Below, piece by piece: positions 43,281-49,651 of a stretch of 64,000 bases of DNA. Positions within the stretch are counted from its first letter, which is position 1. The number at the start of each line of letters is the position of its first letter. This DNA is from Thiorhodovibrio litoralis. Its GTDB lineage: Bacteria; Pseudomonadota; Gammaproteobacteria; Chromatiales; Chromatiaceae. The stretch spans positions 4,202,501 through 4,266,500 of the forward strand of contig NZ_CP121473.1 in assembly GCF_033954455.1 (NCBI RefSeq), given 5' to 3'. Both the position numbers and the translations under genes were made by a program. The notes beneath the pieces are model-generated. The model saw only the letters and a program-made list of their open reading frames with translations, was not told the DNA's origin and ran no database searches.

Positions 43281-46112
43281 ATGGCAGCAAATCCTAACGC
43301 CACGCCTGTGCTTCCCGACCTCAGTCAATGCGAGGCCGAGCCGATTCATCTCTCAGGCGCCATTCAGCCGCATGGGGTCCTGCTCGCCCTGCACGGGCCA
43401 GATTGGCGGATTGTCCAGACCACCGCCACCTGCCGCGAGTTGCTCGGCATCGCCGCAGAGGACTTGCTCGAGCAAACGCTGGAACAAGCCCTGGGCGCAG
43501 CGCTGGTCAGCGCCGTGCAAGACGCCTTGGCGGGTTACCAGGCACAACCTAGCGCCCCCTATTCGTTTCAGTGGCCCTCGCCGCTGGATGCCCGCGCCCT
43601 GACCGGCTATGTGCACGAGTCCGACGGCCTGGTGCTGCTGGAATTGGAGCCGGAACTGCCCGCCGGCGCCGTCCCAGGCGATCTGCTCGCCATGGCCGTG
43701 CGCGGGCTCAACCCGATCCGCGCGCAAAAAGACCTGACGGCAAAGCTGCACAACGCCGCCGCCTTGTTGCGTGATCTGACCGGCTACGACCGGGTGATGA
43801 TCTACCGTCTCGACCCGGTGGATTGGCATGGCGAGGTGGTCGCCGAATCGCGTCGGGACACCCTGGAGCCCTATCTGGGGCTACACTATCCGGCCTCCGA
43901 CATTCCGTTGCAGGCCCGGCAGCTGTATTTGATCAACCGCACCCGGGCGATCGTCGATATCGACTATGTCCCAGTGCCGCTCACGCCGGCGCTCAATCCC
44001 CTCAGCGGCCAGCCGCTCGACCTCTCGCACAGCCTGCTGCGCAGCGTCTCGCCGGTGCATGTGGAATATCTGCGCAACATGGGCGTGCGCGCCACCTTGA
44101 CGCTATCGCTCTACCGCGAAGATCAGCTATGGGGACTGATCGCCTGCCACCATCAGACACCCTATCTGGTCTCAGAGAAGCTCCGCCGGGTCATGGACTG
44201 GATGGCGCAAGATCTGGAGACGCAGATCCAACTCGCCGAAGACGCTTGCCATCGCCGCGCGGAACATGACCTGAAAACCTGCCGCGAGCGCGTGGTAGCC
44301 GCTATGCGCCAAGGTGCACGGCTCTCCGCCTTGCTTGAGGATCCGCATCAGTCTGACCTGCTCGGCGCGGTCGGAGCCGAAGGTGTCGCACTCATCGTTG
44401 GCGAGCATGTTCACACCGGCAGCGAGACACCGGATGCTGCGCGCATCGCCGCGCTGGCTGCCGAGCTGTGCGCGCGCACCAGCGCTGACAAGGCCCCGGT
44501 CTTCGCCACCGATTGTCTGAGTGACCACATCCCCGACACCCGAGACCTAGGGGCTACGGCGGCCGGCCTGGTCTTCCTGCGCTTGACCTCGGCGCCGGAT
44601 CTTGCGCTGCTCTGGTTTCGCGCCGAGCAGGTGCGCCACCTCAGCTGGGGCGGCGATCCCAACAAGCCGGTCACCATCGAGACGGATGGTCGCATTAGTC
44701 CGCGCAAGTCATTCGCGGCCTGGACGCAGACGGTGCATTTGCATAGCTGGCGCTGGAGCGACGAGGAACTGGCATCGGCGAGCAAGCTGGGCGCCTTGAT
44801 CGATATCGAGCTGCGCTATCAGGCCGAGGCAGCGCGCAGCCAGACACAAGCGGAGCTAATCGACGCCAAGGAGCGGGCCGAGGCCGCCAGTCGGGCCAAG
44901 TCCGAGTTCCTGGCCAACATGAGCCACGAAGTCCGCACGCCCCTCAACGGCGTCATGGGCTATCTCCAGCTCATGGAGATGTCGGATCTGGATGAGGAAA
45001 TGGCCGAATATGTGAAATCGGCGAAGGCGTCCTCCCAGAGCTTGCTGACCGTAATCAACGACATCCTCGACTTTTCCAAGATCGAGGCCGGCATGTTGTC
45101 CATCGCGCGCGAACCTTTTACCTTGGGCGCCCTCTTGGAACAGATCAAAGCGGCCTTTGGGCCGCAGGTCGCGGCCAAAGGCATCGCGCTGCACTCACAC
45201 ATCGCCCCCGAGGTGCCCGCGGAATTGATCGGCGACGCCGCGCGGCTGCGCCAGGTGCTATTCAACCTGGTTGGCAACGCCGTCAAGTTCACCGTCAAGG
45301 GAGAGGTGCGCTTGGACGCCCGGGTACTCGAGCCGAGCGAAGCCGGGAGCCTGCGTCTGCAATGCGCGGTGACCGATACGGGCGTCGGCATCGCTGCGGA
45401 CAGAATCGACGAGTTGTTCGAGCCCTTCACCCAGGTCGATAGCTCCTCCATTCGGCGTTTCCAGGGCACGGGTCTGGGTCTATCCATTGTCAAACGACTG
45501 GTTGGCCTGATGGACGGGCAGGTCGCCATTGAAAGCGCCCTGGGCCAAGGAACCACCGTGCGGTTCGATATCGCGGTGGGCATCCTCGCCGCAGAACCGA
45601 CCGCCCGCGAGCCGGCCATCACCGAGGCGAACATCACAGAGCCGGTCACCACCGAGCCGACTATCCCAGGGCCAACTATCCCAGAGCTGGCCCAGGCAAC
45701 GCCCCAGAGCGCGGAGCCGTCCTCGACCAAGCGTCTGCGCATCATGATCGTCGAGGACGACCCGACCAGCTCGCAGATCATGGCGATGTTGCTGGAGCGC
45801 TGGGGGCATCGCGTCTGCACAGCCTTCAATGGCCTCCAGGCACTGGAAGCCATGTCGGGGCAGGCGTACGATCTGGTGTTCATGGACGTGCAGATGCCGG
45901 AGATGGATGGCATCGCGGCCACCCGGCACATCCGGGAGAACCGCAACGGCGACATCGATCCCTCGGTCACCATCATCGCCATGACGGCCCATGCCCTGAA
46001 GGGCGATCGGGAGACCTGTCTCGCCGCTGGCATGGATGACTATCTGTCCAAACCTGTTGACGCGCAGGCCCTGCGGGCAGTGCTGGACCGGTGGGCTACC
46101 CAGAACGAGTGA
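43281..46112 (+). CDS. Bacteriophytochrome hybrid histidine kinase
   Basis: A 943-residue red/far-red photoreceptor kinase: PAS (about 10-115), GAF (about 135-310), PHY (about 320-500), HisKA/HATPase (about 535-760), linker and receiver (about 820-940). The bilin-attachment Cys17 lies in [19 protein letters not shown], so biliverdin is the expected chromophore. PASDIP is at 204-209, and the PHY tongue has PRKSF near 473. The H-box [12 protein letters not shown] has His549, the G-box is [12 protein letters not shown], and the receiver phosphoacceptor is Asp869 ([12 protein letters not shown]). AGAGG upstream supports ATG 43281. No heme oxygenase is adjacent. Output partner unknown. Confidence 0.94.
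45609..45683 (+). repeat. 15-bp tandem repeat encoding the kinase-receiver linker
   Basis: Five in-frame 15-bp units starting at 45609, 45624, 45639, 45654 and 45669 encode [20 protein letters not shown] and GPTIP. They form a Pro/Thr-rich flexible linker between the ATPase and receiver domains. Confidence 0.75.
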
Positions 46113-48345: not shown

Positions 48346-49500
48346 TTAGGCTGCTGTCGACACAATCTTCCTGATCTTCGCGGAATGTTCCAGCGCGCAG
48401 GTCCACTGATAGGCTTGTCGCAGACTCTCGCCCCAAGCATAGACCCCATGCGTCGCCACCATCGCAACCGGGGATGTGCCGAGCGCTGCGGCGACTCGCT
48501 CAGGCACCAGTGCGCAGTAGGCCTCGAAGCTCTCTGGAATGGGCACGATCGGCACCTGCGAAAAATAGTGCCGCCCTTCAAAATCGGCTGGCTCGAATGA
48601 CTTGCCCGCGCAACTCGCGGCAATCGAATAGGCACCATGGCTGTGCAGGATGCCCTGCGCCTGCGGTTGACTTCGATACACCGCCTGATGCAATCCGGCA
48701 TCGAAGGATGCGCCCGCGGGGATAGGTCCTTCCACCGAACAGGGCAGCAGGTCCTCTGGCCTTAGATCATCCCCACCGGCGCCGCTTGGCGTGATCAAAA
48801 ATCCGGTATCCGTGCGAACTGAAGCGTTGCCAGACTGCGCATCATTAAAGCCGTAACGGCGCAGTAGGCGGTAGTAAAACACAAGCTGCTCGCGCAAGTC
48901 GCGCGGCGGCAGCCCGCCACCGCAGCCATGATCGGCGTGCCGGCCCCTTGCCATCGGTCCCTGTGCGGCTATTCCGATACGCGGGTTTTGGAGAAGAAAA
49001 TCGGCAATTGCCTCGGGCTGGTTCAACGGCAACAGCGGCAGATTCACCGGCACCTGATCGGGAGCATCGCTCGCTACCGCAATCAGATCGGGATCATCGA
49101 AGTTTGAAAACGCGCAGCCTGAAGCGAGCCGATGCACTGCAATGCGCGGAAAGGAGGCCCCATGCCAGCCCTCGATCAGGATCAGGTCGGTCAATTCCGG
49201 GTCAAAGTGCGACAGCAAAGCCTCGAAACCCGGAGCACCCGTCTGCTGACCTGACGCGAAACCTTCCTGCAACAGTGCCCAGCGTTGGGATGAAGCGATA
49301 AGCACAGAACCTGCGCCGGCCGCACGCAGCCTGAAGCTGTCCTTGCCGGGCACATCCAGGTCGAAGCCATGATGGGCGTGCTTAAGATAACCCAGCCGCA
49401 GACCGCGGGCGCGCAGCACCGGGACCAGTTGCGCCAGCAGGGTTGTCTTTCCGGTACCGCTGGGTGCCGCGAATCCGACATGCGCAATGCCATGAGTCAT
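48346..49500 (-). CDS. MobB-class II aldolase fusion protein
   Basis: A 384-residue two-domain protein. ATG 49500 gives the MobB-type start (MTHGIAHVGFAAPSGTGKTT; P-loop PSGTGKTT). The MobB part runs to about 185 with LGYLKHAHHGFDLDVPGKDSFRLRAAGA and LILIEGWHGASFPRIAVHR. After a Gly/Arg-rich linker, a class II aldolase/adducin domain (about 200-380) has FYYRLLRRYGFNDAQSGNAS, the zinc ligands in ILHSHGAYS and in ATHGVYAWG, and EGRHYF. MobB binds GTP in bis-MGD synthesis; the aldolase half resembles sugar-phosphate aldolases/MtnB-like enzymes. The joint function is unknown. A longer frame reaches 49542 without added domain sequence. Confidence 0.85.
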   Translation of the reverse strand: MTHGIAHVGFAAPSGTGKTTLLAQLVPVLRARGLRLGYLKHAHHGFDLDVPGKDSFRLRAAGAGSVLIASSQRWALLQEGFASGQQTGAPGFEALLSHFDPELTDLILIEGWHGASFPRIAVHRLASGCAFSNFDDPDLIAVASDAPDQVPVNLPLLPLNQPEAIADFLLQNPRIGIAAQGPMARGRHADHGCGGGLPPRDLREQLVFYYRLLRRYGFNDAQSGNASVRTDTGFLITPSGAGGDDLRPEDLLPCSVEGPIPAGASFDAGLHQAVYRSQPQAQGILHSHGAYSIAASCAGKSFEPADFEGRHYFSQVPIVPIPESFEAYCALVPERVAAALGTSPVAMVATHGVYAWGESLRQAYQWTCALEHSAKIRKIVSTAA

Positions 49501-49651
49501 GGCTTCGGGCCTCTGGCCATGCTTTTCCGCACGATAAAACACAGCCAGTTAAAGGGATACAAAATCAGTTTTCGGTTTTGGAACGAAATCCCTTGGCTGC
49601 TCTGCTCGAGATATGCGACGCCTTGAGCTCAGGCCGCACACTCGTAATCTG

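Follow-up and report, generated by a model that had tools for sequence, protein, structure and literature searches.

A fusion of MobB with a class II aldolase in the Chromatiaceae, and loss or decay of its aldolase half

The window analysed here is a 64,000-nucleotide stretch of the Thiorhodovibrio litoralis genome. On its reverse strand, positions 48346..49500 hold one stop-free frame of 384 codons (P0001), in which two Pfam domains were identified: MobB (PF03205) at residues 8–145 (E 6.5e-39, 133.3 bits against a curated cut-off of 26.6), and Aldolase_II (PF00596) at residues 205–376 (E 4.7e-34, 118.3 bits against a curated cut-off of 22.2). The Pfam scan found no third domain above cut-off, and as neither MobA nor MoeA passes its Pfam cut-off, P0001 lies outside the MobA-MobB and MoeA-MobB type of fusion. 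An earlier note on this DNA had described the gene as MobB joined to a class II aldolase, and the single frame, with both domains well above their cut-offs, bears this out. Elsewhere in the window, a 943-residue phytochrome-like hybrid histidine kinase with a receiver domain was recognised by eye on the forward strand (43281-46112).

The MobB half (residues 1–172, 48985..49500, reverse strand as for all features of the gene), which has the E. coli MobB structures 1np6 and 1p9n among its structure matches, possesses the Walker A motif S14-G-T-G-K-T19 (49444..49461), identified from the translation and a motif alignment, and an intact PGKDS motif at residues 51–55. A linker follows (residues 173–199, 48904..48984), modelled with low confidence and variable in sequence and length among relatives, and then the class II aldolase half (residues 200–384, 48349..48903), for which the nearest structure is 2fk5. 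Alignment places its metal ligands at H286-S-H288 (48637..48645) and at H351 (48448..48450) of the motif T350-H351-G352, so the HxH and THG ligands are intact, as had been claimed. With these three histidines, its score and its predicted fold, the half agrees with the PF00596 superfamily. Aligned with family sequences, D267 (48700..48702) takes the position of the catalytic Glu73 of E. coli FucA. An SD-like AGAGG (49510..49514) is found 9 bases 5' of the ATG at 49500. A further AGGGA-ccg-ATG, with a 3-nt spacing (48952..48962), makes M183 in the linker a possible internal start, from which free aldolase could possibly be produced; the linker has no methionine in the relatives G001 and G019, and G006 has one elsewhere than M183.

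In the 5.47-Mb, single-contig source genome, PF03205 and PF00596 each have one match, the fused gene, which is the sole MobB and the sole class II aldolase of this genome. The earlier note had raised the question of a standalone mobB, and PF03205 gives none. Three matches to PF00384, the family of bis-MGD-type enzymes, are present; this family also takes in NuoG.

An AlphaFold model of P0001 (27 sequences) has a mean pLDDT of 88.6 and a pTM of 0.59. Each half is folded in the model, confidence being weak at residues 80-82 and 189-192, and because of the low pTM their mutual placement does not appear fixed. The aldolase half, the only part covered by the VIA-align rows, matches T. thermophilus 2fk5 with a Z score of 27.4 (rmsd 1.6 over 181 residues, 35% identity), E. 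coli FucA with 24.5 (mutants up to 24.9), DrdA 6btg with 24.8, AraD 1jdi with 21.8, pyruvic oxime dioxygenase 8ix6 with 21.6 and human APIP/MtnB 4m6r with 21.4. The matches, which include an epimerase, a dehydratase, a decarboxylase and an Fe(II) dioxygenase, share the class II fold, and likeness to the predicted structure does not settle the reaction. MobB is recovered by Foldseek with an rmsd of about 9-10, a value that arises from the alignment extending across both halves.

P0001 scores 112 bits on the MobB model TIGR00176 (cut-off 76.2). It resembles E. coli MobB (1np6, 1p9n; PRK10751, TIGR00176) in the P-loop, PGKDS and EG motifs, with 38-42% identity in Foldseek, but differs from it in possessing a C-terminal aldolase, and obtains 143 against a cut-off of 204 on the E. 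coli-type model PRK10751. MobB is likewise merged with another protein in the MobB-MobA and MobB-MoeA fusions (PRK14489, PRK14490, PRK14491); however, those partners are cofactor enzymes whereas that of P0001 is an aldolase, and P0001 is far below the cut-offs of these three models. A MobA-MobB fusion is reported in Geobacter (PMC2700814) and MoeA-MobB fusions in gammaproteobacteria (PMC13197769). The latter paper presents E. coli MobB as a non-essential GTP-binding helper, and Methylorubrum MobB as essential for a tungsten FDH, with MoeA1-MobB proposed as a platform (PMC13197769). A search of open-licence PMC papers found no description of a MobB-aldolase fusion, which agrees with the view that an aldolase is an uncommon partner for MobB.

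The aldolase half is less readily named. Its closest solved structure, the T. thermophilus 'L-fuculose-1-phosphate aldolase' 2fk5/2flf (E 1.5e-24), differs in having Glu at the D267 position and a chain without MobB. The top curated aldolase model for P0001, NCBIfam PRK08660, is named 'aldolase', which gives no substrate, and scores 108 bits, below its cut-off of 203. FucA models reach 38-54 bits against cut-offs of 250-400, and no Ald2/DrdA model is found among the best 25 of 43 NCBIfam rows for P0001.

To establish the distribution of this architecture, P0001 was searched in 55 relatives and in the 155 genomes of an order sample, all of which belong to one family of purple sulfur bacteria, the Chromatiaceae. 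Among named relatives, the best matches come from Rhabdochromatium marinum (L022, 69% identity) and a Thiorhodovibrio MAG (L023, 56%). Checked ORF by ORF, a joined MobB and aldolase frame is present in 18 Chromatiaceae genomes from 9 genera (G000, G001, G006, G019, G017, G066, G070, G093, G106, G112, G117, G126, G143, G151, G164, G168, G169 and G170); at least 17 of the 155 order-sample genomes carry it, and G019 is an extra one from the relatives sample. Within the genomes surveyed here, the fusion is found only in Chromatiaceae. The earlier note had also considered that two separate proteins might have been joined by a frameshift, but the recurrence of the joined frame in these 18 genomes of 9 genera excludes an artefact of this kind or of assembly, whose residual probability is practically nil. 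Many Chromatiaceae also contain a weaker PF00596 match within frames of ∼650-720 residues, apparently another aldolase fusion of a different family.

In other genomes of the family the two genes are separate. They are neighbours in five genomes (G012, G031, G011, G027 and G171), with gaps of 43, -50, 14, -22 and -56 nt when ORFs are taken from the first possible start, and lie 1.9-2.6 kb apart in seven, namely six of genus g4 and G018. In genus g4, the molybdate transporter genes modB-modC (identity checked for G157) lie between the two on the opposite strand (L112:7251-9010, L113, L114, L106), while a different ORF separates them in G018. An aldolase is present in G016, where mobB is absent from the stretch examined. 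The gene order in unfused genomes is cheB-motA/B-like-parA-like-cheW-like-(DUF4197)-mobB-aldolase, placing the pair at the end of a chemotaxis/flagellar operon; a methyltransferase-like gene in convergent orientation often follows. The DUF4197 and methyltransferase domains were checked by domain search; the motA/B-like, parA-like and cheW-like genes are presumed to be such from their sequence. Among the fused genes, that of G151 remains at the chemotaxis/flagellar locus, where CheB was verified. Those of G000 and G001, as well as the MobB-only gene of G002, adjoin a run of genes that I take to be pilMNOPQ-like, and the remaining fused genes are at other genomic locations.

A MobB tree of 42 rows was rooted at its midpoint, so that "clade" designates one side of a branch. 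A split (98/98) separates all 12 unfused pairs, the fused G151 and G117 and four solo MobBs on one side from 16 fused proteins and eight solo MobBs on a second side. On this tree, a single clade of fused proteins was rejected (AU p 1.2e-9); the aldolase tree, from a quick search, has many open forks and supports no claim made here. Either fusion occurred more than once or losses were many, and the aldolase half has been lost or has decayed. The simplest account of the MobB tree is that the fusion apparently arose at least twice, and the second side may reflect a single old fusion, after which the aldolase was lost several times, or else additional gains. It may be instead that one very old fusion was repeatedly split back into two genes, but G151 speaks for a fresh fusion, having kept an intact SD and start. 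There, the fused frame runs through GGAGGAG and the former ATG of the aldolase (L123:7170-7260). To judge from this sequence, the mechanism of fusion is seen here as read-through into the downstream aldolase start, and with so strong an internal SD and ATG, G151 may make both the fused and the free aldolase. The opposite process is seen in G002, a congener nested among fused proteins as the sister of G001 (100/96), with its MobB at the same pil-like locus. PF00596 has no match in this genome, and tblastn for an aldolase remnant downstream of its mobB gave only E 3.4 at best; this is a clear loss of the aldolase with MobB retained.

Decay is also apparent within the fused proteins. All three zinc-ligand histidines are present in 11 of the 18, while at least one is missing in seven (G017, G070, G126, G143, G168, G169 and G170), and two or three in six of these. 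The earlier note had regarded loss of key residues across homologues as a sign against its proposal; this sign is present in the seven but absent in the remaining 11. In G070 the change is a single H288Y, which may be an error, the assembly being highly fragmented (∼1,890 contigs). G112 and G164 have the three histidines intact but carry changes at other positions that are usually conserved. The three histidines are retained in all 13 unfused aldolases examined from Chromatiaceae (12 of pairs, and that of G016). On the MobB side, 17 of the 18 fused proteins retain the SGxGKT, PGKDS-type and EG motifs, the remaining one, G164, being truncated by a contig end; G106 has C at the H44 position. This makes the suggestion of a repurposed P-loop domain unlikely, and nothing in the sequence suggests that the MobB of P0001 has a role other than that of the predicted bis-MGD helper.

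Genus g69 (G143, G168, G169 and G170; L166, L167, L168 and L120) is among the decayed cases, its zinc site being gone. The motif sites read VGAR and GQG in three proteins and HLSS and GRG in one, the D267 position is Glu in all four, and these aldolase halves are candidate pseudoenzymes. I compared substitution in the two halves; dS approaches or reaches saturation in several pairs, which leaves only the contrast in pN and a rough ratio usable. For G000/G001, with an intact zinc site, pN/pS is 0.155/0.551 in MobB and 0.196/0.636 in the aldolase; similar purifying selection on both halves is indicated for G000, G001 and G006. For the g69 members G143, G168 and G169, the pairwise values are 0.175/0.461 (G143/G169), 0.250/0.430 and 0.280/0.559 in the aldolase half, and 0.154/0.390, 0.185/0.437 and 0.194/0.375 for the same pairs in MobB.

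Such values are of interest for a reading in which the aldolase half is kept as a tetrameric fold that clusters MobB, and thereby its MobA and MoeA partners, its chemistry being secondary and lost in some genera. Although g69 has lost the zinc site, pN remains below pS in its aldolase half, not far from the MobB half, and the G143 aldolase half continues to be recognised by Pfam as Aldolase_II (E 5.3e-19) and is predicted to fold with a block pLDDT of 81-96, except for one loop block at 59, and a Z score of 21.5 to 2fk5. The DrdA paper (PMC6079011) describes the class II fold as tetrameric. However, the G143 fold may be over-confident, as active homologues were included in its alignment; the G126 aldolase half has diverged at ∼2.5 times the rate of MobB (pN 0.31-0.34 versus 0.12-0.14); and G002, with no aldolase half, is joined by seven other solo MobBs that group with fused ones. 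I consider this reading unlikely, and quite unlikely the more specific proposal that the aldolase was recruited as an oligomeric platform of bis-MGD assembly, the two activities at first sharing a chain and one genus then losing the metal site while the fold stayed under selection. Adducin has an aldolase-like head that is inactive, and the platform, if true, would be its bacterial counterpart.

The aldolase also occurs outside the Chromatiaceae. With the 191-residue C-terminal part of P0001 as query (E <= 1e-22), the family was found in 48 of 303 gammaproteobacterial genomes in a class sample, the source genome included, and the other matches are 40-53% identical. A family alignment of 64 fused and unfused sequences, in which one contig is represented twice, shows hardly any variation at the three histidines and at E371, and 63 of the sequences have Asp at the D267 position. 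I then gathered 40 regions, of 3-19 kb with five below 12 kb, from 40 of the 48 aldolase-bearing genomes, all outside Chromatiaceae. In 22 of the 40 loci, a thiD-family gene lies no more than five genes downstream in the same orientation, often after a gap of 275-533 nt, and two more have a hemL-family gene without thiD. The pair metK-ahcY is found in four of these regions, and also in L024. For one locus, L148, the assignments of thiD, thiE, hemL, metK and ahcY were verified against NCBIfam, the thiD of this locus scoring 204.5 bits against a cut-off of 204.95. The aldolase is thus a stand-alone gammaproteobacterial family, often located 5' of thiD-thiE-hemL, an association on which nothing was found in open-licence PMC literature when class II aldolase was searched together with thiD and thiE. 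One region (L143; G229:C76, 7226 bases) carries an identical copy of the aldolase at each end, the two facing opposite ways, and is probably an assembly palindrome.

This gene order bears on two further readings. The first, close to what the earlier note had hinted at, would have the aldolase act upon, or provide, some component of molybdenum cofactor handling, which the fusion would then channel. Unfused genomes retain the order mobB-aldolase, and the pair apparently became fused at least twice; such recurrent fusion is expected under functional coupling too, and to that extent counts against independent halves. In addition, modB-modC lie between the pair in genus g4, and in G444, of another family, the aldolase is upstream of modB-like and what I take to be cysM- and modA-like genes on the same strand (L137:5829-9467). 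Nevertheless, a mobB-like ORF is found in none of the 40 outside regions, and a general molybdenum link by gene order was rejected on these grounds; the g4 modB-modC genes are on the opposite strand; the seven fused proteins without full zinc ligands have an intact MobB; and G002 lives on MobB alone. A joint function in cofactor handling and C-C lyase chemistry therefore gains little from these data, and I regard it as very unlikely.

The second reading is that the aldolase is kept close to the sources of 5'-deoxyadenosine. The pathways of thiD-thiE (through ThiC) and of mobB (through MoaA) use radical SAM enzymes, and metK-ahcY are tied to SAM. The thiD-family genes in 22 of 40 loci, the two more with hemL and the four with metK-ahcY would fit such an arrangement. 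According to PMC6079011, 5'-deoxyadenosine is released by radical SAM enzymes, and a class II aldolase carries out the last step of the 5-deoxyribose pathway. On the other hand, no radical SAM gene is among those identified in these loci, the gaps to thiD are often as long as given above and thiD-thiE-hemL may be plain synteny, which leaves the reading rather improbable.

As to the reaction, I infer that the aldolase half would cleave a ketose 1-phosphate into dihydroxyacetone phosphate and an aldehyde, from the class II fold, the three-His metal site and the SGN motif of the phosphate pocket. Its substrate is, tentatively and with somewhat less than even odds, 5-deoxyribulose 1-phosphate or 5-methylthioribulose 1-phosphate. 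These are the substrates of the aldolases DrdA and Ald2 (6btd, 6btg), which have the class II fold in common with P0001, and the proposed likeness is a role after an MtnA-type isomerase. Identity to the P0001 aldolase is only 19-20%, and mtnA of the source genome is away from the fused gene. The catalytic, metal-displaced Glu of these enzymes (FucA Glu73; DrdA Glu76, according to PMC6079011) is Asp in P0001, where Asp267 aligns with the FucA Glu, and this counts against a salvage substrate.

The distribution of MtnA was used to evaluate this proposal. Of the 48 aldolase-bearing genomes, 44 have MtnA (all but G229, G339, G348 and G459), against 138 of the 255 without the aldolase (Fisher p 2.5e-7, ignoring shared ancestry and genome reduction). 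MtnA was present in all 14 genomes first tested, above cut-off in 13. Within the Chromatiaceae, where any PF00596 match occurs in 111 of 155 genomes, co-occurrence is uninformative because 149 of the 155 have MtnA. The methylthioribulose-1-phosphate dehydratase MtnB (TIGR03328) belongs to the same superfamily as the P0001 aldolase, which scores 59.4 bits on its model against a cut-off of 137, and would draw on the same substrate pool. Among 182 MtnA genomes, 44 have the aldolase, 55 MtnB and 5 both, the co-occurrence being lower than the 13.3 expected (p 0.0013, phylogeny and genome reduction ignored). The other 88 have neither MtnB nor a P0001-type aldolase at the thresholds used, and MtnA is therefore no specific partner of the aldolase. 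The five genomes with both enzymes count against a salvage substrate, as does the fact that genomes with an inactive or missing aldolase (G002, G143 and G170) still have MtnA. An MTAP-family protein is found in 22 of 22 genomes tested, with nine, the source genome not among them, above the family cut-off. Beside mtnA in the source genome is a TRZ/ATZ hydrolase, similar to MtaD/5'-deoxyadenosine deaminase; it scores 333 bits against a cut-off of 522 on the 5'-deoxyadenosine deaminase model PRK07228, and, among the best 25 of 28 models, is above cut-off only on the general PRK09045. The MtnA, MTAP and deaminase-like genes fit a DHAP shunt (PMC10986504, PMC6079011).

Taken together, I favour, with a probability of about 0.6, a true fusion of two ordinary neighbouring modules, a MobB for bis-MGD and an aldolase, that work independently. 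In a Chromatiaceae ancestor, the aldolase gene would have been placed directly 3' of mobB, and loss of the stop codon between them, apparently on at least two occasions, would have joined the frames. The linker is flexible and unconserved and, several relatives having lost the aldolase half or its active site, the halves most likely work independently: the N-terminal half as a GTP-binding MobB helper in maturation of the bis-MGD cofactor, and the C-terminal half perhaps as the last step of a salvage route, on a substrate derived from 5'-deoxyadenosine or methylthioadenosine through MtaD/MtnP-type enzymes and then MtnA. In one genus, g69, the inactive but still constrained aldolase half may have taken on a structural role. 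That the class II fold serves other chemistry counts against the proposed reaction.

The fusion adds an unexpected and evolutionarily persistent partner to MobB, a protein whose role is still unsettled. Within one bacterial family, the Chromatiaceae provide a natural series of separate genes, adjacent genes, a fresh read-through fusion, a fixed fusion, a dead half and a lost half, useful for understanding how adjacent genes become fused and how such fusions break down. Finally, an uncharacterised aldolase family, often located 5' of thiD-thiE-hemL, may end the salvage of 5'-deoxyadenosine or MTA.
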